In this document: positions 2,670 to 61,296 of the stretch, piece by piece
Numbering within the stretch: position 1 is the first letter of the stretch
How the letters are laid out: every line of letters starts with the position of its first letter
Virus record (IMG/VR): IMGVR_UViG_3300046836_000468
Span: 1-61,296 of that record
DNA length: 61,296 nucleotides
Strand: one strand, 5' to 3'
Origin: a virus
Made by a program: the position numbers and the translations under genes
The notes under the pieces: model-generated
Told to the model about the DNA's origin: nothing
The model's input: only the letters and a program-made list of their open reading frames with translations
The model's database searches: none

Positions 2670-3193
2670 TGCCCAAGTTCTCGGACGAGTCGGTGCGTGC
2701 GGCGCTGCGTGGCAGACAAGCCATGCAGCGCTACCCGTTTCCGGGGCAGCCCGGCATCGAGGTCGGGGTCAAGCTGCTCACGGACGCGGAGCTTGACAGC
2801 GTGCGCCTCGAGGCGGTCGAGCTGTGCAAGCGCGCCAAGGCCGAGCTCGTCGCGGACCCCGAGTTCCTCGACCGCATGATTCACCGCGAGACCATCTCGC
2901 GTGCGTTCGTCGACGTCGATGCGCCGACGCAGCCTTTCTTCAGCTCGCAGAAGGAGGTCGCCGAGCTCGACAGCCTGACGGTGCGCACGCTGTTCGAGCT
3001 GTACAAAGCGCATCACGAGGCGATGGACCCGTACACGCATTGCCCGCCCGAGGAGGTCGGAGCGCTCGTCGAGTCGCTAAAAAAATCAGCGCAGCCACTG
3101 GCGGTCTTGAGCCTCTACGACTCGTCCACGCTGAGGCACTGCGTCACTTCTATGGCGTCGATGCTGCGCGGGACGTCACCGCCACCCAGTTGA
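2669..3193 (+). CDS. tail assembly chaperone, short form
   Basis: This 174-aa protein lies between tube and tape-measure genes, the position of the lambda gpG / Mu gp41-type chaperone. It is helical and acidic with no transmembrane segment. Codons 137-139 contain a run of seven A (3079-3085) in the frame X XXY YYZ, where a -1 shift would give a longer product. The zero-frame tail after that point is short and weakly protein-like (RGTSPPPS), as expected of the unshifted product. Confidence 0.82.
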   Translation: MPKFSDESVRAALRGRQAMQRYPFPGQPGIEVGVKLLTDAELDSVRLEAVELCKRAKAELVADPEFLDRMIHRETISRAFVDVDAPTQPFFSSQKEVAELDSLTVRTLFELYKAHHEAMDPYTHCPPEEVGALVESLKKSAQPLAVLSLYDSSTLRHCVTSMASMLRGTSPPPS

Positions 3194-3246
3194 TCTACTT
3201 CCTGCAAGTGCTGGCCGAAGTGCGCGAGCGAAGGAGTGGACAGTGA
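2669..3246 (+). CDS. tail assembly chaperone, -1 frameshift product (G-GT type)
   Basis: Slippage at the A AAA AAA heptamer would join the first 139 residues to 53 residues of the -1 frame (ISAATGGLEPLRLVH ... YFLQVLAEVRERRSGQ), giving 192 aa. The -1 frame is helical and protein-like. Its stop overlaps the tape-measure GTG start (GTGA), the same coupling used all along this operon, whereas the zero-frame stop leaves a 49-base gap. Long-tailed phages commonly make both forms in a fixed ratio to load the tape measure. Frameshifting itself is inferred. Confidence 0.78.
3079..3085 (+). promoter_or_regulatory. -1 ribosomal frameshift slippery site
   Basis: Seven consecutive A residues are read as CTA AAA AAA in the chaperone frame, the canonical A AAA AAA heptamer. 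It is the longest A-run noticed in this GC-rich genome and lies exactly where the zero frame and the -1 frame overlap. No downstream pseudoknot was modelled. Confidence 0.8.
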
Positions 3247-7692: not shown

Positions 7693-8240
7693 GACGCATG
7701 GACGTCGGCCAGTTCCTGCAGGACGTAATCGGCTTTGCCAAGGTCGTGCGCGCGAGCGTGGGCAAGAGCGGCTCGGTCGAGCTCGGCATCGAGGCGCACG
7801 CCGACGACGCAAGCAAGGACAGCTGCGAGTGGTGGGGCCACCCGGCCATCAGCTGCCAGCCTGCAGCGGGCTCGGAGTCGCTGTTCGTCGACCTGGGCTC
7901 GGAGCGCATTGTGCTCGGCGTCAAAGAGCGGCGCTGGCAGGTGTCGGTCGAGGCAGGCGAGTGCGTCGTGCGCGCGCTCGGGCCGAGCCCGGCAGCCTAC
8001 CTCAAGCTCAAACCGGACGGCACGGTGGAGCTACACGCGACGCGCATCGACCTTGGCGGCGAGGCGCTCACGACGTTCATGGCGCGCGCCGACCGCGTCG
8101 ACGTGGCGCTGACCAAGCTGCAGTCGACGTTCGACGTGCACACGCATCTGTCGGCCGCGCCGAGCTCGCCCACGTCGCCGCCTGCCGTGCCGATCGGGGC
8201 GCTCGGCAGCTCGGCAGCAGACAAGGTTTACGGCTCGTAA
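7689..8240 (+). CDS. baseplate spike protein (Mu gp45 / P2 gpV-like)
   Basis: This 183-aa protein should form the trimeric membrane-piercing spike: an OB-fold first half (residues ~25-100), then a beta-helix (KLKPDGTVELHATRIDL). HTH at 151-153 in FDVHTHLSAAPSSP is the HxH motif that holds an iron ion at the spike tip in P2 gpV and Mu gp45, followed by the usual Pro-rich loop. Size matches the family (~190-210 aa). Confidence 0.85.
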   Translation: MRRMDVGQFLQDVIGFAKVVRASVGKSGSVELGIEAHADDASKDSCEWWGHPAISCQPAAGSESLFVDLGSERIVLGVKERRWQVSVEAGECVVRALGPSPAAYLKLKPDGTVELHATRIDLGGEALTTFMARADRVDVALTKLQSTFDVHTHLSAAPSSPTSPPAVPIGALGSSAADKVYGS

Positions 8241-21313: not shown

Positions 21314-21631
21314 ATGGGCTTCCGCGACCTCAAAGCCATCGGCGAGATGTTTCGCGAGCTCAGCCAGGGCGCGCTCGAGCAGGCGCACTACGACGCGTAC
21401 CAGCGCAAGCTCGCTTATAAGCGCGAGTGGTATCGCTTCAATCGACAGCGCGTCTGCGCTCACCAGCACGCGTACTACCGCGCCAACAAGCCGCGCATCA
21501 ACGCCTACGACCAGGCGCGCAAGAACACCGACGCTGCGCGCGCGCGACGTCGGCAGCGCTACCGCGCCGACCGCGAGCGCATCCTCGCGAGCCAGCGTGC
21601 GCGCTACCAGAAACAAAGGACCCGACCATGA
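21314..21631 (+). CDS. small basic protein with Tyr/Arg repeats
   Basis: This 105-aa product has three imperfect copies of a Y..N+..I.A....+K/R-rich helix (YYRANKPRINAYDQARKN, RYRADRERILASQRARYQ), a pattern seen beside HNH/NUMOD nucleases and in basic nucleic-acid-binding tails. No nuclease residues follow. It directly precedes and overlaps the ParB-like gene, so it may bind DNA for that cassette. Function unproven. Confidence 0.55.
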   Translation: MGFRDLKAIGEMFRELSQGALEQAHYDAYQRKLAYKREWYRFNRQRVCAHQHAYYRANKPRINAYDQARKNTDAARARRRQRYRADRERILASQRARYQKQRTRP

Positions 21632-22230
21632 GCAAGACGACCGCAGCACGCAAGCAAGAGGCAGAGCCCGCAGGCCCGCTCCAGGTGACGTACAGACCGC
21701 TCGCTGAGCTGATACCATTCGCGAGAAATTCGCGGACCCATAGCGACGCGCAAATCGCCCAAATCGCGGCGTCGATCAGGGAGTTCTCGTTCACCAACCC
21801 AGTGCTGACCGACGAGCTTGGCGGCATCATCGCAGGGCACGGGCGCGTGCTGGCGGCGCGGCAGCTCGGGCTCGCCGAGGTGCCGTGCATCGAGCTGCGC
21901 GGACTGAGCGAGGTGCAGAAGCGCGCCTACGTCATCGCGGACAACAAGCTCGCGCTCAACGCGGGCTGGGACACGGAGCTGCTCGCGGTCGAGCTGCAAG
22001 GGCTGGCGGACGAGGGGTACGACGCGCTGCTGACGGGCTTTGACCAGGGCGAGCTCGACGAGCTGCTCAAGGGCAGCGAGGGCGCCGACAAGGACATGCT
22101 CGGCGACAACGGCTTCGAGCACGAGTCGCAGTACGCCGTCATCGTCACGGCGGCCGACGAGCAGGAGCAGCAGCAGATCTACGAGCGGCTGGTCGAGCTC
22201 GGGTACACCTGCAAGGTGGTGAACGTGTGA
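21628..22230 (+). CDS. ParB/sulfiredoxin-fold domain protein
   Basis: The 200-aa protein has the ParB/Srx N-terminal domain at ~18-110: YRPLAELIPFARNSRTHSD, NPVLTDELGGIIAGHGRVLAARQLG, VPCIELRGLSEVQKRAYVIADNKLALNAGW. In phages this version is usually fused to a DNA methyltransferase. Here the C-terminus is a short acidic region with no methylase motif, and the next gene encodes an ABC-GNAT protein instead. It is a CTPase-fold or DNA-modifying accessory rather than a partition protein, which is a separate module at 29.9 kb. Overlaps both neighbours. Confidence 0.8.
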   Translation: MSKTTAARKQEAEPAGPLQVTYRPLAELIPFARNSRTHSDAQIAQIAASIREFSFTNPVLTDELGGIIAGHGRVLAARQLGLAEVPCIELRGLSEVQKRAYVIADNKLALNAGWDTELLAVELQGLADEGYDALLTGFDQGELDELLKGSEGADKDMLGDNGFEHESQYAVIVTAADEQEQQQIYERLVELGYTCKVVNV

Positions 22231-23333
22231 GGGTCGTCGTCGAGAATCGCTGCAGCGACTATGCGAGCTACCGCGCGGCGCGCGTGAAGTCGCTCTTCAA
22301 CGCAGAGTCCGGCTGCAACTTCGACCTCACCGCCGAGCTGCCCATCGAGGCGCTCGACTGGAAGCTCGGGCTGGTGGTCGGCCCAAGCGGCAGCGGCAAG
22401 ACCTCGCTCGGCCGGCGCATCTTCGGCGAGGGCGCGCTCTACGAGGCCAAGGGCTGGCCGAGCGACAGGCCCATCGTCGACGCGATTGCGCCGAGCGCCG
22501 CGTTCGACGACGTCACCAACGCGCTCGCCGCCGTGGGCCTTGGCTCGGTGCCGACGTGGCTCAGGCCCTACCCGGTGCTGAGCAACGGCGAGAAGTTTCG
22601 CGCCGACCTCGCGCGCATCGTCTGCGAGCAGCCCGCGCAGGTGGTGGTCGACGAGTTCACGAGCGTGGTCGATCGGCAGATTGCGAAGTTCGGCGCGCTC
22701 GCGTTCGCCAAGTCTTGGCGACGTACGCCGGGGCAGTGCGTGCTGCTGTCCTGTCACTACGACATCGTCGACTGGGTCGAGCCGGATTGGATCTTCGATA
22801 CCGCGACGGGACAGTTCGCAGGGAGGTCGGTTCGGCGACGCCCCACGTTCGAGCTCGTTATCCGGCAGACGGACCGCAGTTACTGGAAGCACTTTGAGCC
22901 GCATTACTATCTGAAGCTGCCCTCGATGATCGCAGGCACCTACTACGTCGGCACGGTGGACGACGAGCTCGTGGCGCACGTCTGCTTCGACACGTGCGCC
23001 GGAATGAGGGAGGCGCGCGCGTCGCGCCTGGTGGTGATGCCCGAGTGGCAGGGCGTCGGCATCGGCACGCGCTTCCTCAACGCGGTCTGCCGGATGTGGC
23101 GGGAGGGGCGGAACCGATACCACAGGCCGATGACCACGCGCTTTCACACGACCCATCCCGGCCTCTGCGCCGGGCTGCGCCGTGACAGAAACTGGACGCA
23201 GATCTCGGCCGCGCTGACGGGCTGCAACAAGGCGCGCTCCGCGAGCACGATGAAGCGAGGAGCCGTTCCCGTCGGCTACGGCGGGCACTATCGCGCCATC
23301 CAAGGCTTTCGCTACGTCGGAGAGGGCGCGTGA
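22227..23333 (+). CDS. ABC-type ATPase fused to GNAT acyltransferase
   Basis: The 368-aa protein combines an ABC ATPase (~1-205: Walker A GPSGSGKTS at 52-60, signature LSNGEK at 118-123, Walker B VVVDEFTS ending 146, H-loop His177) with a GNAT domain (~208-340: acyl-CoA loop VVMPEWQGVGIGTRF at 269-283). There are no membrane helices, so it is not a transporter; the ATPase half would act like an SMC/MutS-type switch. Mu Mom, which hypermodifies adenine, also has a GNAT-like fold. Joined with ParB-like and formyltransferase-like genes, a nucleic-acid modification role is the leading hypothesis. Confidence 0.78.
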   Translation: MRVVVENRCSDYASYRAARVKSLFNAESGCNFDLTAELPIEALDWKLGLVVGPSGSGKTSLGRRIFGEGALYEAKGWPSDRPIVDAIAPSAAFDDVTNALAAVGLGSVPTWLRPYPVLSNGEKFRADLARIVCEQPAQVVVDEFTSVVDRQIAKFGALAFAKSWRRTPGQCVLLSCHYDIVDWVEPDWIFDTATGQFAGRSVRRRPTFELVIRQTDRSYWKHFEPHYYLKLPSMIAGTYYVGTVDDELVAHVCFDTCAGMREARASRLVVMPEWQGVGIGTRFLNAVCRMWREGRNRYHRPMTTRFHTTHPGLCAGLRRDRNWTQISAALTGCNKARSASTMKRGAVPVGYGGHYRAIQGFRYVGEGA

Positions 23334-24136
23334 GAATCTACCTGTGCGGACAGCGCTCGTTCGGCCGCGCCGTGCTCGCGATACTGCTCGAGCGCGGCCA
23401 CCAGCTCGCGGGCGTGTCGGCGCCGCCCGCGCACGGCGACAGAGAGGACGCGCTCTGGGGGCTTGCCACGGACGAGCGCCTGCCGCGCCTGCCTGCCGGC
23501 GCGCTCAACGCCTCGACGATGCCGCCCGACGTCGACCTGATCGTCTGCGCGCACAGCCACGACTTCGTCGGTCGCGGGACGCGGCTGCGCGCGCGGCACG
23601 GCGCGCTCGGGTACCACCCTTCCCTGCTGCCGCTGCATCGCGGGCGCGACGCGGTGCGCTGGGCAGTCAAGATGGGAGACCGCGTCACGGGCGGCAGCGT
23701 GTACTGGCTGAGCGACACGGTCGACGGCGGGCCCATCGCGGCCCAGGAGTTCGTGTTCGTGCGGCCGGGCGAGACCGCCCCCGAGCTCTGGCGCCGGGCG
23801 CTTCACCCGCTCGGCGTCGCGCTGCTCGCCCGCGTGGTCGACGACGTCAGCGCCGGGCGCGCGGCGCGCGTGCCGCAGGACGAGGCGCTGGCCACCTGGG
23901 AGCCGTCGATGGGCCGGCCGCCGCTGCGCCGGCCGGACCTGACCCTGCTCCGCGCCGACAACCAGGCGCCCGATGAAGGCCCCGCGCTCGCGCCAGGAGC
24001 CGCCGCGCCGGCCGTGCGGTACGGGGAGCTGCCCCTCGTCGGATCGCCCGAGTGGGTCGCTGCTAGCGCCCGACGCGCCGGAAGCTCACGACCCACACCA
24101 GGGGATTGCTCGACCACGGCGCACGGGCCGCGTTGA
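23330..24136 (+). CDS. formyltransferase-fold protein
   Basis: Residues ~1-205 of 268 match the formyl-THF transferase N-domain (PurN/Fmt): MRIYLCGQRSFGRAVLAILL, VDLIVCAHSHDFV, HPSLLPLHRGRDAVRWA, GGSVYWLSDTVDGGPIAAQEF. Catalytic His96 and the Asp of VDGGPI (132) are present, but the usual Asn two residues before the His is Gly94. The ~60-residue C-terminus is low-complexity and overlaps the convergent ASCH-like gene by 74 bases. It probably transfers a one-carbon or related group in the same pathway as the ABC-GNAT protein; substrate unknown. Confidence 0.75.
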   Translation: MRIYLCGQRSFGRAVLAILLERGHQLAGVSAPPAHGDREDALWGLATDERLPRLPAGALNASTMPPDVDLIVCAHSHDFVGRGTRLRARHGALGYHPSLLPLHRGRDAVRWAVKMGDRVTGGSVYWLSDTVDGGPIAAQEFVFVRPGETAPELWRRALHPLGVALLARVVDDVSAGRAARVPQDEALATWEPSMGRPPLRRPDLTLLRADNQAPDEGPALAPGAAAPAVRYGELPLVGSPEWVAASARRAGSSRPTPGDCSTTAHGPR

Positions 24137-25978: not shown

Positions 25979-26170
25979 TCAGAGCTTGCGGGCGGCCAGC
26001 TCGGCGACCGCTAGGCGCACGACCTCTACATCGCTGAGCCCGAGCTGCCTGCTCAGCGCGTGAAGCTGCGCGAGCGCGCTCGGCACGAAGCGCACGGTGA
26101 CGCGGTCGGCGCTGCGCTTCGCTGCAGGTAGCGGCGGGCGACCACGGCCCCGCTTTTTCTTGGCGGCCAT
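25979..26170 (-). CDS. ribbon-helix-helix protein 2
   Basis: The 63-aa product begins AAKKKRGRGRPPLPAAKRSADRVTVRF, an Arg/Lys arm plus RHH ribbon, followed by helices PSALAQLHALSRQLG and SDVEVVRLAVAELAA. Its start lies 4 bases after the stop of the GIY-YIG-RHH gene, so they share an mRNA. No clear ribosome site. Close in style to RHH proteins 1, 4 and 5. Confidence 0.65.
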   Translation of the reverse strand: MAAKKKRGRGRPPLPAAKRSADRVTVRFVPSALAQLHALSRQLGLSDVEVVRLAVAELAARKL

Positions 26171-26174
26171 CTGT

Positions 26175-26672
26175 TTACGGAGCCCGTCGTTCGCGCAGCC
26201 TCGCACGCGCTTGGGGGTCGTCTCTGAGGTGCCTCAGTGCCGCGCGCATGATCGCGGCCTTGCTGAGGCCGCTCTCCTTTGCGATCGCGTCCATCTTGTC
26301 GATGTCGGTCTGCCACAGTCGGAGAGGGAAAATGCGCCCGCTCCGCTCTTCAGCAGGCAATGGCGTGCGTCCGCCATTGCCTCCCGCTGTGTGATTGAGC
26401 AGCGGTTCTCCGCGAGCAGAGACTGTTGCTATCCAACGCATCTCGGACGCGTCACTGTCTGCCTGGTGAACGCGCTCGAGGACTTCAAGCGTAGGCTTGA
26501 GACCTTGCGAGTGAAGCTCCGCAACCCATGCACGGACGTTGGGAAGTTTGGCGCTAGGCCTGCAATGCGATGTGAAACGATCGCGCGGGTTGACCGTCTT
26601 GCCCACGTAGCGGACTGCGCCGCTGCGAGGATCAACCAGTCCATAAATCGTCGTCATTCGGTCGTCAGGCAT
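26175..26672 (-). CDS. GIY-YIG nuclease-RHH fusion
   Basis: The 165-aa protein has a GIY-YIG domain at ~7-90 (TIYGLVDPRSG, RYVGKTVNPRDRFTSH with Arg32, and acidic residues further on) followed by an RHH domain at ~100-155 (GGRTPLPAEERSGRIFPLRL, helix DIDKMDAIAKESG, helix SKAAIMRAALRHL). Small GIY-YIG enzymes are often homing nucleases; here the RHH would supply DNA specificity. ATG at 26657 is an alternative start. GC is lower than nearby genes, consistent with a mobile origin. Confidence 0.75.
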   Translation of the reverse strand: MPDDRMTTIYGLVDPRSGAVRYVGKTVNPRDRFTSHCRPSAKLPNVRAWVAELHSQGLKPTLEVLERVHQADSDASEMRWIATVSARGEPLLNHTAGGNGGRTPLPAEERSGRIFPLRLWQTDIDKMDAIAKESGLSKAAIMRAALRHLRDDPQARARLRERRAP

Positions 26673-26688
26673 GCGCCGAGCCTAGCCC

Positions 26689-26709
26689 ATTATTCGGCGG
26701 CCAGCTATT
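26689..26709 (+). promoter_or_regulatory. 21-base element, copy 2 (candidate RHH operator)
   Basis: It lies 17 bases upstream of the GIY-YIG-RHH start, in opposite orientation to copy 1, with 17 of 21 bases shared. A partial match (ACTATTCGGC) is found at the end of the RHH 5 gene near 27030. The position suits autoregulation by one of the RHH proteins. Confidence 0.4.
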
Positions 26710-26757
26710 CGCACGCGCCCGCGCTTCGCTAGTTCGCGCACGCGCACGTCGAGCGCC

Positions 26758-26955
26758 TCAACGCACGCCCTCGCGCTTGGCCAGCTCACGCAGCGCGCGC
26801 CGTATCACGTCGCCCTCGCCCAGCTCGAGCTGCTCGCACAAGTCCGCGAGCGCGCGCTCGTCCTCAGCGTAGAGGCGCGCCGTGGCGCGTCGCGTCGTGC
26901 GCGCTGCGCTCGCGAGGCTCGGTCGCTCGGCTCTCTTCTTGGGTCCTGCAGGCAA
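26758..26955 (-). CDS. ribbon-helix-helix protein 4
   Basis: A TTG start with AAGGA 6-7 bases upstream gives 65 aa: a basic arm (AGPKKRAERPSLASAARTTRR), ribbon ATARLY, helices AEDERALADLCEQLE and GEGDVIRRALRELAKRE. Closest relative in the window is RHH 5 (same LY.EDE.AL..LC pattern), so the two arose by duplication. Confidence 0.62.
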   Translation of the reverse strand: MPAGPKKRAERPSLASAARTTRRATARLYAEDERALADLCEQLELGEGDVIRRALRELAKREGVR

Positions 26956-27030
26956 CGCACATCCTTTAGGTCAGACGCGAACTGGTCGCAGGCTGCAGCC
27001 GCCTCGACAGGCTGTCAACAGCTGCGCCTA

Positions 27031-27255
27031 CTATTCGGCAGGCTGGCGTTGCGCGATGGTCTGCAGGCGCGCGAGCAGCCGTAGCGCCGTGCGGATGATC
27101 TCGCCCTCGTTCGTCTCGAACTTTGCGCAGAGCAGCTCGAGCGCCTGCTCGTCGTCCCGGTAGAGGCGCACGGTCACGCGTCGCGAGGTGCGCAGCTCAG
27201 GCGGCATCGGAGGCCGGCCGATCGCGCCGCGCTTGTGTTGGCTCTTTTTGGGCAA
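27031..27255 (-). CDS. ribbon-helix-helix protein 5
   Basis: The 74-aa product (TTG start, no clear ribosome site) carries GRPPMPPELRTSRRVTVRLY, helices RDDEQALELLCAKFE and NEGEIIRTALRLLARLQ. It shares GRPP.P with RHH 1 and 2 and the LY..DE.AL..LC motif with RHH 4. The upstream gap contains an inverted repeat with paired CGTGAAATC words that could be its operator. Confidence 0.62.
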   Translation of the reverse strand: MPKKSQHKRGAIGRPPMPPELRTSRRVTVRLYRDDEQALELLCAKFETNEGEIIRTALRLLARLQTIAQRQPAE

Positions 27256-27992: not shown

Positions 27993-28234
27993 CGTGGGGT
28001 CTCCTCGGGTTGGTGGATGCGTGCACGCAAGCGCGCAGCGACGCGCGCGAGCTCTCGTCTGCGTAGCCTGAACTGCGCGCCCCAGCAGCGCGCGCAGCTC
28101 GCAGGCGACGCGTCTGCGCCGCCGACGTCCCAGGGCACCCAGCGCCGGCACGACGCGCAGCAGAACAGCTGGCAGCGCTCGCAGCTCGAGGCGCCGCGCG
28201 TGACGAACCGGGCGCAGCGCGGGCAGCGCATCAC
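27989..28234 (-). CDS. zinc-ribbon protein
   Basis: The 81-aa product holds CPRCARFV, CERCQLFCCASC and CARC, enough paired cysteines for two small zinc knuckles, then a basic helix RLRRRELARVAARLRARIHQ. It starts GTGATG overlapping the Rep-like stop. Small zinc-ribbon proteins of this kind recur at 33269 and 41312 and may be nucleic-acid or protein adaptors. Confidence 0.6.
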   Translation of the reverse strand: MMRCPRCARFVTRGASSCERCQLFCCASCRRWVPWDVGGADASPASCARCWGAQFRLRRRELARVAARLRARIHQPEETPR

Positions 28235-29514
28235 GACGCCTCCTCGGCGCGCTGCGCGCGCAGCACCTGCGCCTCGTACTCGAGCCGCAAGCGCTTGGTG
28301 GGCTCGAGGTCGCGCTCGAGGTCGCGCTCGACCTTGCGCAGCTGCTCAGCGAGCGTCGGTGGCGTCGACGGGAGCGCCATCGACCGAGGTCGGTAGACGG
28401 CCAGCAGCTCGCGCGCGGACAGCGGCGGCGGCGCCGGGGCAGGCTCGCCACGCGCTAGCTCGCAGACGTGCTCGACCGCCTGGTGCTCCGGGTCCTGTCG
28501 CTCGAGCTGGTCGATGTCTGCCCGCCGCTTGCGGCCGGCGCGGTGGGCGAGCTCGCGCAGCTTGGCAGCCTCGGCAAGCGCCCCGCGCTGCTCGGCCTCC
28601 TCGCGCAAGTCCTGCAGTCGGCGCATCGCCCCCCAGCCCGAGCCGTCGCTGCGCAGCGGCACGATGCGCCCCGCGGCGACCTCGCGCGTCGCCCAGCGGT
28701 GAAAGCCCCCGGGGTTTTGGACCTGCCCGCGCGGCTTGTTCACGAGCAGCACGACAGCCTCGAGCGCGGCGCGCGGGGCAGCTCGCGCCTCGTGCTCACG
28801 CAGGTTCGCGACGACGTCGCGCAGCCCATCGGGGCCGTGCTCGCGCGCCACGGCAGCCAGCAGCGCCGGGGGCGCCTCGACCGGGGGCAGCACCGGGCCG
28901 AGCTCGCCCGCGCCGCCAGCGGGTCGCAGGGCCAGCGCGGTTCCCGCTGCCGCAACCGGTTCCCGGAACCGCTTGGGAGGCCGAGAGGGCAAAGCAGGGG
29001 CAGCAGCAGCTGGCGCGTCCTCGCGCGCGCTCTGCTGCTCTCTCTCTTTCTTCTCTCTCTCACGTGAGTCTTCTCTAAGAGGGCGGACGCCCACGTCCAG
29101 GCGGACATCTGTGTGCGGATGTCCTACATCGCTCGTCGGCAGGCAGCAGACGTAGTCGTTCGAGCGCTGCAGCCCTGTGCTCTCGAACCACGAGCCCCAG
29201 CGTTCGAGCAGCCCGGCGTCGGAGAGCTCGGCGAGCACGCGACGCGCGTGGCGCTGGCCGACGCCCAGCTCCTCGCCGAGGGCCGCGACGGTGAAGAATG
29301 CGTGCGGGAAGCTCGGCAGCGAGGCGATGTAGCGCGCTGCGTGCCGCGCGTTGCGCGTCAGCCCAGCAGCCACAACTGCCAGCACCCAGGCGCGGCGGGC
29401 CGGGGGCAGCTTGCGCTCTGCGTCGCCTGCTCGAGCACCGCTCCCAACATGGGACGCGCTACTTCCTTGCGCGCGGCGGTCGTGGCTGATAGCTTCTGCG
29501 TGTCGTGACGGCAT
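28231..29514 (-). CDS. winged-helix replication initiator-like protein
   Basis: From the ATG preceded by GAGG the product is 427 aa. Residues ~40-130 contain helices and a winged helix (FFTVAALGEELGVGQRHARRVLAELSDAGLLERWG) typical of phage/plasmid replication proteins. Residues ~150-220 are a charged linker, and the rest is Ala/Arg/Glu-rich and helical. It reads away from the origin-like gap and the parA module, which fits a Rep protein. No catalytic rolling-circle motif is seen, so a helix-destabilising or helicase-loading initiator is more likely. A longer start (to 29643) is open. Confidence 0.5.
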   Translation of the reverse strand: MPSRHAEAISHDRRAQGSSASHVGSGARAGDAERKLPPARRAWVLAVVAAGLTRNARHAARYIASLPSFPHAFFTVAALGEELGVGQRHARRVLAELSDAGLLERWGSWFESTGLQRSNDYVCCLPTSDVGHPHTDVRLDVGVRPLREDSREREKKEREQQSAREDAPAAAAPALPSRPPKRFREPVAAAGTALALRPAGGAGELGPVLPPVEAPPALLAAVAREHGPDGLRDVVANLREHEARAAPRAALEAVVLLVNKPRGQVQNPGGFHRWATREVAAGRIVPLRSDGSGWGAMRRLQDLREEAEQRGALAEAAKLRELAHRAGRKRRADIDQLERQDPEHQAVEHVCELARGEPAPAPPPLSARELLAVYRPRSMALPSTPPTLAEQLRKVERDLERDLEPTKRLRLEYEAQVLRAQRAEEAS

Positions 29515-29840
29515 TCGGGTGCCTCGCGAACGCGCCTCGTTTCCTTCCTGCCGCCAAGCAAAGGGGAAACGGGGCGTTCGGCTTTGTGGTGATGAGGTTG
29601 CGCGCCCCGGTTCGGGCGCCACTCGATCGCACATACACTGCATCGCGGCAGTCGGCGCAAGTTTCTGTCCGACGAGAAGCCGAAACGCCCGTCTGCGCGC
29701 AGCGACGCTGCAATCGCGCAGCCGCGCTGCACAGAATCGACCTGCGGTGGCGATCGCGTGGGCGTGATGGGCGATCGCGAGCGCTCTCGAATGCTCGGCG
29801 ATTGCGGTGAGTTGCGGCGACGACGCGCCGAGAACTTGCG
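29515..29840. promoter_or_regulatory. origin-like intergenic region
   Basis: 326 bases between divergent Rep-like and parA genes without a convincing gene. It holds an interrupted inverted repeat (GGGCGTTCGGCTT at 29572 and AAGCCGAAACGCCC at 29677), two GCGATCGC palindromes (29750, 29771) within GGGCGATCGCGAG-type context, and GCGATTGCGG further on. Divergent promoters must lie here. A replication origin is an inference from the Rep-like and partition neighbours; no DnaA-box cluster was seen. Confidence 0.42.
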
Positions 29841-29898
29841 GTACATTCTGTACGCGATGTACACGGCGTACTGTCTGTACACGACGTACAGCTTGTAC
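29841..29898 (+). repeat. 9-bp-phased GTAC array, copy 1 (candidate centromere/operator)
   Basis: GTAC occurs at 29841, 29850, 29859, 29868, 29877, 29886 and 29895, seven times at an exact 9-base step, with five variable bases between (ACGAC and ACGAG recur). The array ends at the ribosome site of parA. Short tandem sites upstream of a parA operon are typical of parS/parC centromeres that double as operators for the RHH partner. Confidence 0.82.
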
Positions 29899-29912
29899 AC
29901 GAGGGGCAGACG

Positions 29913-30695
29913 ATGATCATCGTGAGCGGCGGACAGAAGGGCGGCACGGGCAAGACGATGCTCGCGACCATGCTCGCGGTCCTGTTCAAATGGATGGGGC
30001 TCGACGTCCTGCTCGTCGACGCCGACCCGTCGCAGGGCTCGAGCAGCGAGTGGGCCAACGAGCGACGCGCAGCGCGCGAGGCCGCGCGCAAGATGGGGGT
30101 CGAGACGCCTATCCCGCACGTCCCGTGCGTGACGCTCGCCGGCATCGTCTACGACGAGCTGCGCGACCTCGAGCGACGCTACGACGTCATCGTCGTCGAC
30201 TGCGGCGGCGCCGAGAGCGAGGAGTTCACCTCGGCCTGCCTCGCAGCAGTCGCTGTTTACACGACCATCCTGCCGAGCGCGTGCGACCTCAAGACCATTC
30301 CCAAGGTCGAGAAGGCCATCAAGCTCTCGCGCGCGGGCGGCAATCGCGAGCTCGTTGCCAAGGTCATCCTCAACCAGTGCTCGAACAACCGGCATGCGAC
30401 CGACAAGCAACGCGCTCGCGAGAAGCTCGCGCAGTACCCGGCGCTCGTCGTCTCTGATCGCTCGATCAACTTCCGCGAGAGCTTCATGGACGCCTACGGA
30501 GAGTGGCTGTCCGTCAACGAGCTCGCCGTCCACGGCTCTAAAGAAGCGCGCAACAAAGCGCGCAAGGCAGCAGCCGAAGCCTGGGCAGTATTCGAGGAAG
30601 TCTGCGCCGACGTGGAGATCCCAGTACACGAGGTACTTGCTGTACCCGGTGTACACGCGGTACACGACGTACACGATGTACAGGAGGTACAGTGA
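29913..30695 (+). CDS. parA: ParA-type partition ATPase
   Basis: The 260-aa protein has the deviant Walker A QKGGTGKT with the signature lysine (residues 8-15), switch motif VLLVDADPSQGSSSEW (33-48) and Walker B YDVIVVDCGG (~90-99). No N-terminal HTH, so it is the small plasmid type, usually paired with an RHH centromere-binding protein. The last ~24 residues are an odd V-H-D-V-H repeat, encoded by the second GTAC array and probably dispensable for catalysis. Ribosome site GAGGGG overlaps the end of array 1. Confidence 0.88.
   Translation: MIIVSGGQKGGTGKTMLATMLAVLFKWMGLDVLLVDADPSQGSSSEWANERRAAREAARKMGVETPIPHVPCVTLAGIVYDELRDLERRYDVIVVDCGGAESEEFTSACLAAVAVYTTILPSACDLKTIPKVEKAIKLSRAGGNRELVAKVILNQCSNNRHATDKQRAREKLAQYPALVVSDRSINFRESFMDAYGEWLSVNELAVHGSKEARNKARKAAAEAWAVFEEVCADVEIPVHEVLAVPGVHAVHDVHDVQEVQ
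30624..30690 (+). repeat. 9-bp-phased GTAC array, copy 2, inside parA
   Basis: GTAC recurs at 30624, 30633, 30642, 30651, 30660, 30669, 30678 and 30687, eight copies at an exact 9-base step. The step equals three codons, so every GTA is read as Val and the parA C-terminus becomes a V..V..V.. tail. The final unit contains the AGGAGG ribosome site of the RHH gene. This looks like a DNA site that has been accommodated in a coding frame. Confidence 0.85.
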
Positions 30696-30997
30696 AGCAG
30701 TCACCACCCGAGATACCGCGCGCCACCGTGCACGGCCTATCCAGCAAGGCCCCGATCAAGTCGCGGCGAGAGCTGCCGTTCGAGAAGCACGACCCGGACG
30801 CCAAGCCGGACAAGGCGTTCCGCTTCGAGACCAATGCCTACGACCGCGCGCTGTTCAAATACGTGGCTGTGCTGCGCGGGGAGGGCGAGAGCGTGACGGA
30901 TGTGATCCGCAAGTTCGCGCGCGACCGCGCGCAGCGCGAGCTTGGCAAGGCCGCCAAGCCGGGTGCCGCTGCAGAGCAGGTGTCCGATGACCCGTAA
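30692..30997 (+). CDS. RHH centromere-binding protein (ParG/ParR-like)
   Basis: The 101-aa product has a flexible N-terminus (~1-40) and a C-terminal RHH-like domain at ~42-85 (KAFRFETNAYDRALFKYVAVLRGEGES / VTDVIRKFARDRAQREL). It starts GTG overlapping the parA stop with a perfect AGGAGG. Gene order parA-RHH and the flanking arrays make it the likely adaptor that binds GTAC arrays and ParA. Confidence 0.72.
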   Translation: MKQSPPEIPRATVHGLSSKAPIKSRRELPFEKHDPDAKPDKAFRFETNAYDRALFKYVAVLRGEGESVTDVIRKFARDRAQRELGKAAKPGAAAEQVSDDP

Positions 30998-31712
30998 TAG
31001 CCAAGCGACGGCGCTGTCAGCTGCCAACGTGAAGATGCGGCGCATGACGCGCCTGGCGAACCAGGAGTTCGACGCGGCGTTTGCGCAGCGCATCGAGACC
31101 GAGGGGTTCGCCGTGACGTGCAAGGCGGGGTGCTCCGCGTGCTGTGACCAGGCGGTGCTGATCACGGCAGCCGAGGCGGACCTCATCATCTCGCGGCACA
31201 GGGACCTGGTGAGAGCTGCGCTGCCAGAGTTCGCGCGGCAGAAGCGGGTCTTGGTCGAGGCCGGCGCGCACGACGGGCCGCGGGACCTTGCCGCCTTGAT
31301 GAGCGACGATGTCGAGGAGGAGCGCGCGAAGATGCTCGCCAACTGGTACAGGCAGCGCATCGCCTGCGCGTTCTTGGACCCGGAGACGAAGCTCTGCAGG
31401 ATCTACGACGTGCGCCCGCTGGCGTGCCGGTCACACGTCGTCTGGACGCCCGCAGAACTGTGCGACCGTCGCCCAGGCGCTGGCCAGTGGCAGCGCGATT
31501 CCGACGAGGACGGGTACGAGTGCCTTGGGGATGGCCCTGAGTTCGACGCTGCTCGCGCGCAGCACATGCTCGCGACAGCGACTGGCTTTGACGTGGTTGC
31601 CATGGGCCTCATGCCGACCATTCTCAGCGCCTTGTATCGGGCGGACGCGAGCGCAGGGGCGCAGGCCAGCGGCGCTGCAGACCCGCAGACCTGCGGGGCG
31701 CCCCATGCCTAA
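30987..31712 (+). CDS. YkgJ-family cysteine-cluster protein 1
   Basis: The 241-aa protein has the CxxxCxxCC motif (CKAGCSACCDQAVLIT) and the second signature CAFLDPETKLCRIYDVRPLACRSH, which together define the YkgJ/UPF0153 family of proteins thought to bind zinc or an iron-sulphur cluster. The biochemical role of the family is not established. ATG overlaps the RHH stop. It is the first of three such proteins within 5 kb. Confidence 0.82.
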   Translation: MTRNSQATALSAANVKMRRMTRLANQEFDAAFAQRIETEGFAVTCKAGCSACCDQAVLITAAEADLIISRHRDLVRAALPEFARQKRVLVEAGAHDGPRDLAALMSDDVEEERAKMLANWYRQRIACAFLDPETKLCRIYDVRPLACRSHVVWTPAELCDRRPGAGQWQRDSDEDGYECLGDGPEFDAARAQHMLATATGFDVVAMGLMPTILSALYRADASAGAQASGAADPQTCGAPHA

Positions 31713-33909: not shown

Positions 33910-34539
33910 ATGAAGCCCGCCCAGGAGCGCCGCCGCCAGCGCGTCCACCTGCAGCAGTACCTCGGCGATCTCATCGCCCAGGTCGACGCCGCGCACGTCA
34001 GGGCCGACGCGCTGCCCGAGGCGACGCAGTACCACGTGCAGTGCACCGAGGGCTGCGCGCACGCGGCCGGCTGCTGCAGTCTCATCGTGCTCACCGAGGT
34101 CACCGAGGCCGAGTACATCGTCGCGCGCAATCGCGCAGCGGTCGTGCGCGCCTATCCGAAGCTGGTTGAGCAGGCCCGCCGCATCGACAGCGAGCTCGGC
34201 TTCGAGGTGCTCGAGATGTTCGGCGACCGCGAGGTCGAGCGCCGCGCAGCTCACGCCTACCACGCGATGCGCATGCCGTGCGCGTTCCTCGACGAGCAGC
34301 GGCGCTGCACCATCTACCGCGACCGGCCGCTCGCGTGTCGCACGCACTTCGTGCTGAGCGACCCGGCGCTCTGCGCAAGCGACGTCGAGGAGACTCACCA
34401 CACCATCCTCGATAAGGGCACGCGCACGTCCGCGCCCGCGTACCTTTGCCGCGAGGTCGCGCGCACGCGCGGCGCGCTATCCATGGGCACGCTGCCGCAG
34501 AACGTGCTCGCGGTGCTGAGGCGGGAGCAGTGGCCGTGA
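33910..34539 (+). CDS. YkgJ-family cysteine-cluster protein 2
   Basis: The 209-aa protein shows the variant cluster CTEGCAHAAGCC and the second motif MPCAFLDEQRRCTIYRDRPLACRTHFV. The spacing before CC is longer than in copy 1. No ribosome site is visible before the ATG, so its mRNA may be leaderless. It shares the second motif closely with copy 1 (CAFLD....C.IY..RPLACR.H), so the two are paralogues or were acquired separately from the same family. Confidence 0.8.
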   Translation: MKPAQERRRQRVHLQQYLGDLIAQVDAAHVRADALPEATQYHVQCTEGCAHAAGCCSLIVLTEVTEAEYIVARNRAAVVRAYPKLVEQARRIDSELGFEVLEMFGDREVERRAAHAYHAMRMPCAFLDEQRRCTIYRDRPLACRTHFVLSDPALCASDVEETHHTILDKGTRTSAPAYLCREVARTRGALSMGTLPQNVLAVLRREQWP

Positions 34540-36418: not shown

Positions 36419-36721
36419 ATGAACGACGACCAGCCCAGGACCGCGCGCGGCTTTCGCATCTTTCTCGCGGACGAGGATCAACTCTACGGCGACGTGAGCG
36501 TCAACGAGAGCAGCATCGCGTTCAGAGGCGCGCACTGCTGGGTCAGGCAGAAGCTGCCGCACGTCACTGACCCTGAGCGTCAGTACCAGTCTGTGCACCT
36601 GAACGTTGCAGGCGCGATCGCCGTGCGCGACGCTCCGGACGCGTTCATTGCGGCAGCGCGCGCGGGCGAGCTCGTGGAGCCTGTCGAGTCTGCAGAAGAC
36701 GAGGAGCAAGACGATGAGTAG
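36419..36721 (+). CDS. hypothetical protein upstream of recombinase
   Basis: ATG with GGAG 7 bases upstream; 100 aa, beta-rich first half (RGFRIFLADEDQLYGDVSVNESSIAFRGAH) and an acidic tail. A 42-base gap before it carries AAGGATCATTAGCGCTCACG and may hold a promoter. It overlaps the recombinase start, so it may be a small control or directionality protein, which is not shown. Confidence 0.55.
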   Translation: MNDDQPRTARGFRIFLADEDQLYGDVSVNESSIAFRGAHCWVRQKLPHVTDPERQYQSVHLNVAGAIAVRDAPDAFIAAARAGELVEPVESAEDEEQDDE

Positions 36722-37679
36722 TAAGCTGGTCAAAGCACAGGTCGACGCGCAGCTCTCGGTGCTGGTGCCCGCAGCGGAGCTCGCTGTCGGCTACGCACGC
36801 GCCGCCAAGGCCGACCGCACGCGCGAGGAGTACGCCAAGCAGTGGAAAAAGTTTCAGCACTTTTGCGACGCGCAGGAGCTGCCCGCGCTGCCGGCGACGC
36901 CGCAGGCAGTCGCGATGTACCTGAGTGTCCGCGCGGACGCAGGCAAGAAAGTCTCGACGCTCGCCCAGGCGCTCGCCGCGATTCGCCACAAGCACGACGA
37001 GCTCGGCCTCGACGCGCCCAACGATCACCGCATCGTCAAGCTCACGATGGCCGGCATCCGAAAGACACACGGCGTGCGCCCGGACAGAAAGGCGCCCGTG
37101 CTCGCCGAGATGCTCGCGCGCATGAGCGAGGTGCTACCGGACACGCTCATGGGCGCACGCGACCGGGCGCTCTTGCTGGTCTGCTTTTGCGGCGCGTTCC
37201 GGCGCGCCGAGGTCGTCTCGCTCGAGGTGTCAGACCTCGCGTTCGGGAGCGAGGGCATCACCGTCACGCTGCGCAAGAGTAAGACCGACCAGGAGCAGCT
37301 CGGGCGCGACATCGGCCTGCCCTACGAGAGCACCTCGCGCACGTGCCCCGTCCGCTCGATGCGCACCTGGCTCGACCAGGCAGGCGTCACCGAAGGCCCC
37401 GCGTTTCGCAGTGTCGACAGACACGGCAACCTCGGAGAGTCGCTCGGCGCGCAGGAGGTCGCGCGCATCGTCAAGCGCACTGCGGTCGCAGCAGGGCTCG
37501 ACCCGAAGCACCTGTCGGGGCACTCGCTGCGCGCGGGGCTCACGACGTCTGCGGCCAAGGCGGGCAAGAGCATGGCTACGATCATGAAGCAGACCGGGCA
37601 CGGCTCGATCGCGATGGTCATGCGCTACGTGCGCGCCGCCGACCTGTTCACGGACAACGCTGCAGCGGGGCTGCTGTGA
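36714..37679 (+). CDS. int: tyrosine recombinase (integrase or multimer resolvase)
   Basis: The 321-aa enzyme has a core-binding domain (~20-115) and a catalytic domain with Arg163 (GAFRRAE), Lys190 (RKSKTD), HSLR (His270, Arg273), TGH (His296) and Tyr305 (MRYVR). All six catalytic positions are present. No arm-binding N-terminal domain is evident; it is short, XerC/Cre-like. With a plasmid-type partition module in the same genome it could integrate the phage or, as Cre does in P1, resolve multimers. No attachment site was recognised nearby. Confidence 0.87.
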   Translation: MSSKLVKAQVDAQLSVLVPAAELAVGYARAAKADRTREEYAKQWKKFQHFCDAQELPALPATPQAVAMYLSVRADAGKKVSTLAQALAAIRHKHDELGLDAPNDHRIVKLTMAGIRKTHGVRPDRKAPVLAEMLARMSEVLPDTLMGARDRALLLVCFCGAFRRAEVVSLEVSDLAFGSEGITVTLRKSKTDQEQLGRDIGLPYESTSRTCPVRSMRTWLDQAGVTEGPAFRSVDRHGNLGESLGAQEVARIVKRTAVAAGLDPKHLSGHSLRAGLTTSAAKAGKSMATIMKQTGHGSIAMVMRYVRAADLFTDNAAAGLL

Positions 37680-61073: not shown

Positions 61074-61296
61074 TACGCTCAGAGTCCGCGCCGTCGAAGG
61101 GCGCTTGCTGCAGTGGGAGGGCGACGCGCATCGCGGCTACGTCGGCTGGTCGACTGCGCCTGCGGGCGCGGCGTACGACCACGAGATTGACGGCGTCGTG
61201 AAGCTGGCGATGAGCGAGGCGCCCGTCGACGTGCCCAACACGATCTACTACCGCAAGGCGCTGTCGTGCGGCGACCTCGACGACGCGACGGGCGAG
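61066..61296 (+). CDS. neck/tail-completion protein, DUF2635-like (5' part)
   Basis: First 77 residues of the 295-aa protein whose remainder is at 1-784. It begins MADTLRVRAVEGRLLQWEG and the DUF2635-like end VDVPNTIYYRKALSCGD falls in the duplicated terminal 127 bases. Sits immediately upstream of the sheath gene after circularisation. Confidence 0.75.
   Translation, partial: MADTLRVRAVEGRLLQWEGDAHRGYVGWSTAPAGAAYDHEIDGVVKLAMSEAPVDVPNTIYYRKALSCGDLDDATGE
61170..61296. repeat. terminal direct repeat, right copy
   Basis: Identical to bases 1-127 (see left copy). Annotated here so the overlap is removed before length or gene counts are taken. Confidence 0.93.

Follow-up and report, generated by a model that had tools for sequence, protein, structure and literature searches.

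A putative dual-array centromere in a phage partition cassette, with one array overprinted by the parA reading frame

A type Ib partition cassette and its two GTAC arrays

The window analysed here is the whole of the IMG/VR record IMGVR_UViG_3300046836_000468 (61,296 nt), and it contains a parA gene (29913–30695, + strand), an adjoining RHH gene (30692–30997, + strand), and two arrays of GTAC sites, one before parA and one at its 3′ end. The parA product is a type Ib/MipZ-like Walker ATPase of 260 amino acids with a core spanning residues 1–237. It matches the Pfam families CbiA (3e-14) and MipZ (2e-12) as well as PHROG 164, ParA-like (1.6e-32), in agreement with the identity assigned to it in an earlier, sequence-only reading of this DNA. 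In alignment, the protein is 35–40% identical to plasmid ParAs (Skermanella, Allochromatium, Burkholderia, Microbacterium, and others). The Walker A motif KGGTGKT is located at residues 9–15, and the absence of any N-terminal extension means that the type Ia HTH domain is missing.

The second gene has a GTG start that overlaps the parA stop codon as GTGA, and encodes a 101-amino-acid protein, which we propose to be the centromere-binding protein. This protein has no direct Pfam or PHROG match. It is recovered with 14–17 bits by a profile built from the RHH proteins that occupy the same position beside related parA genes, and a profile of the family to which it belongs matches ParG (PDB ID 1p94, 2.5e-5), CopG, Mnt, and Arc in the PDB. 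Single-sequence AF2 prediction was poor; an alignment-based AF2 model has a pLDDT of ∼90 over residues 41–80, and its best fold matches in Foldseek are the RHH proteins ParD, PrpA, NikR, and Arc, followed by omega (1irq), with E-values that are all >1. Given these weak E-values, the RHH assignment rests on profile and fold jointly; the scores are modest, and they support the RHH partner that had been proposed beside parA. The two genes form a type Ib partition cassette, with a small Walker ParA lacking an N-terminal HTH, an adjoining RHH gene, and short contiguous repeats upstream (seven GTAC).

The upstream array (29841–29898) consists of seven GTAC sites starting at 29841, 29850, 29859, 29868, 29877, 29886, and 29895, separated by variable 5-bp spacers, and is the proposed centromere/operator for parA. 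The downstream array (30624–30690) lies within the parA 3′ end and consists of eight sites starting at 30624, 30633, 30642, 30651, 30660, 30669, 30678, and 30687. Every step is exactly 9 bp, as had been noticed from the letters. The window holds 11 instances of three consecutive GTACs at a 9-bp step, 100 dinucleotide-preserving shuffles gave none, and the complete genome holds no GTAC-9 array of at least three copies besides these two. Mean pairwise spacer identity is 0.31 in the upstream and 0.51 in the downstream array, compared with a median of 0.84 for 231 other public perfect GTAC-9 arrays (at least six copies, among the matches listed). The upstream value is lower than that of every one of these 231 arrays, among the matches listed, and such unusually diverse spacers argue that the array is not a recent tandem duplication.

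Both arrays run into a ribosome site. The upstream array is non-coding and ends at the Shine-Dalgarno sequence of parA itself (GAGGGG, 29901–29906, + strand, directly 3′ of the array; ATG at 29913), a feature that the sequence-only reading left unremarked. The Shine-Dalgarno sequence of the RHH gene (AGGAGG, 30682–30687, + strand) was placed by that reading in the last array unit; it does overlap the array, but runs from the spacer of unit 7 into the first base of the eighth GTAC. We found no sigma-70-like promoter at the array, a consensus that may not suit the host.

The record has a perfect 127-bp terminal direct repeat (1–127 is identical to 61170–61296), and thus appears to hold an entire phage genome (61,169 bp) that either closes into a circle or is terminally redundant. 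Among its products are a tail sheath, baseplate hub, terminase, portal, major head protein, and connector, together with a single-strand binding protein, a DnaD-like helicase-loader match, a repressor-like HTH protein, and a tyrosine recombinase/integrase (36606–37679), which could serve either phage integration or dimer resolution. A divergent gene adjoining the partition cassette (28231–29643, − strand) has sub-threshold Pfam wHTH matches, including HTH_36, and is a candidate replication initiator. Directly after the cassette, the protein encoded at 30942–31712 contains a CxxCxxCC putative metal-chelating domain, which recurs in the protein at 33910–34539. Several small look-alike ORFs with RHH-like sequence lie on the minus strand at 25979–27255, and one protein from this region (26175–26672) shows weak GIY-YIG and RHH_1 matches. 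A further cassette at 21427–24136 (a ParB_N-like protein, an ABC-ATPase/GNAT protein, and a formyl transferase) is possibly a DNA-modification cassette; its last two genes share ∼55–66% identity with several other viral contigs (L429–L441). A single-protein scan with ParA returned no close relatives of the phage, and a scan with the 22227–23330 protein recovered relatives of the 21427–24136 cassette, none of which had a ParA or a GTAC array.

Codon usage in the ParA tail

The downstream array is read in the parA frame, as the sequence-only reading had stated, in the form GTA-CNN-NNN, and encodes VHEVLAVPGVHAVHDVHDVQEVQ, corresponding to ParA residues 238–260. All eight valine codons in this tail are GTA, compared with 36 of 1014 (3.6%) in the other longer genes (Fisher 6e-12) and with 1 of 23 in the rest of ParA. 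The residues that follow the eight valines are, in order, H, L, P, H, H, H, Q, and Q. The tail had been described as a V-H-D-V repeat dictated by the DNA site; our analysis supports the dictation by the site, whereas a uniform V-H-D repeat is not found, the constant feature being a valine followed by a residue with a C-initial codon (H, L, P, or Q). In alignment, the homology of relatives stops before the tail and related ParAs lack it; nearly all of those measured are ∼190–245 amino acids long, compared with 260 here.

The GTA codon bias, the presence of the same element in non-coding DNA, and the diverse spacers together define the target of selection as the GTAC word and its spacing, and neither a tandem-duplicated unit nor the peptide. 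We thus regard the 23-residue tail as a probable by-product of the DNA site, and any role of the tail in ParA itself as putative.

Site pairs at related ParA loci

We compared the locus with 80 viral contigs that encode a related ParA, as well as with 8 plasmids and a few genomes. The absence of the arrays from related parA loci had been named as the finding that would speak against the sequence-only reading, and the GTAC-9 array is indeed present at none of the 88 other ParA loci examined, the exception being the distant locus L039, which was itself found via its array. The reading nevertheless stands, since many relatives carry repeats of another motif at the corresponding position, which is what co-divergence of a site and its binding protein would produce: in about 36 of 90 loci a motif other than GTAC is strongly enriched 5′ of parA (uncorrected p < 1e-6). 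Likewise, four ParA relatives recovered in a search of 377 genomes from the phylum of a Deltaproteobacteria MAG all lack GTAC-9. We also considered GTAC-9 as a widespread partition signature and rejected it: scans of public DNA returned at least 397 array loci, and among the matches listed only L039 and the window have a ParA nearby. Most of the public loci that we looked at are repeats within genes, and their units are nearly identical.

Besides the window, three groups of loci show one motif in two places, 5′ of parA and at the parA/RHH junction, with sequences that are unrelated between groups. In a Caballeronia plasmid (L257), ACTCA sites are found upstream and in the last parA codons (ELSGSMELSE*). 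The identical loci L319 and L320 contain 16 GCTA/TAGC sites upstream of parA (5′ of position 2501 in L319), and five GCTA sites with an exact 9-bp step within the N-terminal region of the RHH gene (L319, 3273–3312; L320 is the same). In this in-gene array alanine is encoded by GCT in 5/5 cases, compared with 20% elsewhere (p = 3e-4), indicating codon bias towards the site. L319 also has an HTH_36 gene (8.8e-9) 3′ of its RHH gene. In L333, GATATC palindromes precede parA (2430–2477, 11-bp step) and the RHH gene (3154–3225, 70-bp gap), and each set ends at AGGGGT, a ribosome-site-like stretch; L333 represents an intergenic counterpart of the layout in the window. The dual-site layout is thus recurrent, with unrelated site sequences.

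L039 has six GTAC sites at a 9-bp step within the RHH gene 3′ of parA (7763–7811), encoding VQDVQKVHEVHEVHEVQ, and no upstream array. GTA is the usual valine codon of this locus (20/28), which makes L039 a weak case of DNA-level selection. In a separate observation, a genome from the phylum of a Deltaproteobacteria MAG shows an extreme upstream form, with at least 39 palindromic AGCT sites spaced by exactly 8 bp in front of a parA/RHH pair (L516, 901–1208).

A proposed dual-array centromere and operator

The explanation we favour, and consider probable for the locus as a whole, is a dual-array centromere/operator in which each array abuts the Shine-Dalgarno sequence of the next gene and the second array is overprinted by parA. 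The arrays would represent contiguous binding sites for RHH dimers, one array immediately 5′ of each ribosome site, with one dimer bound per palindromic GTAC. A 9-bp step corresponds to 309 degrees (9 × 34.3), so that successive dimers would be rotated by about −51 degrees and would coat the DNA as a left-handed protein matrix of roughly one turn per seven sites. This spiral is a plausible prediction and has precedent in the wrapping of short contiguous repeats by RHH proteins (omega of pSM19035, and the 9-bp repeats in pCXC100). Acting as a centromere, the matrix would offer the RHH N-terminal tails to ParA; acting as an operator, it would limit parA transcription at the first array and, at the second, either read-through transcription of the RHH gene or its coupled translation.

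The ingredients of such a system (type Ib genes, short-step arrays, a centromere that is also the operator, and a parS inside a partition gene) are already known, and it is their combination that appears to be new. In pCXC100 of Leifsonia, Huang et al. 2011 are said to have found an RHH ParB on uninterrupted 9-nt direct repeats, the array reportedly lying only upstream of parA. The likeness to the window lies in the 9-nt step, and the 9-bp step itself is thus not new. A published account also describes the pCXC100 repeats as direct (PMC5016525). The delta-omega system of pSM19035 has a small ParA, an RHH ParB, and several short-repeat arrays as centromeres, each with 7–10 heptads in a row that extend over the par promoters; full activation of ParA requires a minimum of four adjoining repeats (PMC9499535). 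The heptads are 7 bp long and non-palindromic (WATCACW), the par genes have separate promoters, unlike those of the window, and the arrays lie in promoters and are not described in parA (PMC9499535), where the second array of the window is found. Omega and SegB, both RHH proteins, form left-handed superhelical assemblies on DNA (PMC9178275). ParF-ParG-parH of TP228 shares with the window the parA-parG order, a small RHH protein with a flexible N-terminus, and upstream repeats (PMC5016525), and its ParG is among the PDB matches of the family profile that includes our RHH protein. Unlike the GTAC arrays, parH has direct and inverted repeats with AT-rich spacers located upstream of the genes, and no in-gene array is described (PMC5016525). 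A centromere site inside a partition-gene coding sequence is known from the parS within repB of the repABC plasmid pRleTA1b (PMC4492784); this system differs in being of type Ia, its RepB belongs to the ParB family, and its parS is a discrete site where the window has a multi-copy array dictating a protein tail. In the limited open literature covered, we found no account of a ParA whose C-terminus is dictated by the multi-copy centromere array of its own system, with the ribosome site of the partner gene inside that array.

In the course of evolution, parA would have been extended through the second array so that it now ends at the RHH start, a course open to it since GTAC sites spaced by 9 bp introduce no stop codon into the parA frame. 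The intergenic form seen in L333 suggests a route to the form in the window, in which the parA stop would have been lost and the junction array read through. The prophage of this phage is probably kept as a plasmid. The complete phage, with tail sheath, terminase, and portal, carries a ParA and a candidate replication initiator, but also an integrase, which is a point against our explanation, as the prophage may integrate. The missing sigma-70-like promoter at the array, and the finding of a single other GTAC-9 array near a ParA among the public loci listed, also speak against it.

The integrase, and the fact that each array abuts a ribosome site, would also fit arrays that are operators only, through which the RHH protein autoregulates the two genes, the true centromere being elsewhere or the phage having no plasmid-like partition. 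Repression usually needs fewer contiguous sites than the seven and eight present here, and the complete genome has no other 9-bp GTAC array. Known type Ib systems use one set of sites as both centromere and operator (PMC9499535), and we judge a pure operator unlikely. It is considerably less likely that another phage protein reads the arrays, either one of the small RHH-like proteins at 25979–27255 or the divergent winged-helix protein, for which the arrays would be iterons. Several small DNA-binding-like genes do lie nearby, but the arrays flank parA and touch the gene of the RHH partner, and parA-flanking motifs recur in relatives with an RHH gene at that position.

The tail could have been selected as protein, a V-x-x repeat binding a partner, with the DNA array as the consequence, and the RHH protein of L039 does contain a comparable stretch (VHEVHEVHEVQ). 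We consider this highly improbable: the same array is found in non-coding DNA 5′ of parA, all eight valines use a 3.6% codon, the peptide varies (HE, LA, PG, HA, HD, QE) around a constant DNA word, and relatives lack the tail. Equally improbable is an action of the arrays as RNA, with self-complementary GUAC hairpins controlling translation of the next gene, since the good folding of array 1 against dinucleotide shuffles (z = −3.9) is not shared by array 2 even against ordinary shuffles (z = −1.5), and neither array is special once the null keeps the GTACs (spacer-only shuffles fold as well in 13% and 74% of cases for arrays 1 and 2, respectively).

Within the dual-array centromere/operator, the overprinting itself may be regulatory, although we hold this to be unlikely. 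RHH protein bound to the second array would halt transcription or translation in the last 23 parA codons and mask the RHH ribosome site, and occupancy of the in-gene centromere would then set the form of ParA (tail complete or not) and the ParA:RHH ratio. If this were true, the in-gene arrays of the window, L257, L319/L320, and possibly L039 would represent a feedback device that recurs and has evolved separately, and not a means of compacting the genome.

The locus provides a natural case, with a codon-usage test, of a multi-copy centromere/operator overprinted on the reading frame of its own motor protein. As surveyed loci have the same layout with unrelated sites, the way in which site, tail, and ribosome site are coupled lends itself to comparative tests across loci. 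Pairs of upstream and junction sites beside parA are detectable by sequence alone, which aids the assignment of centromeres in uncharacterised phages and plasmids.
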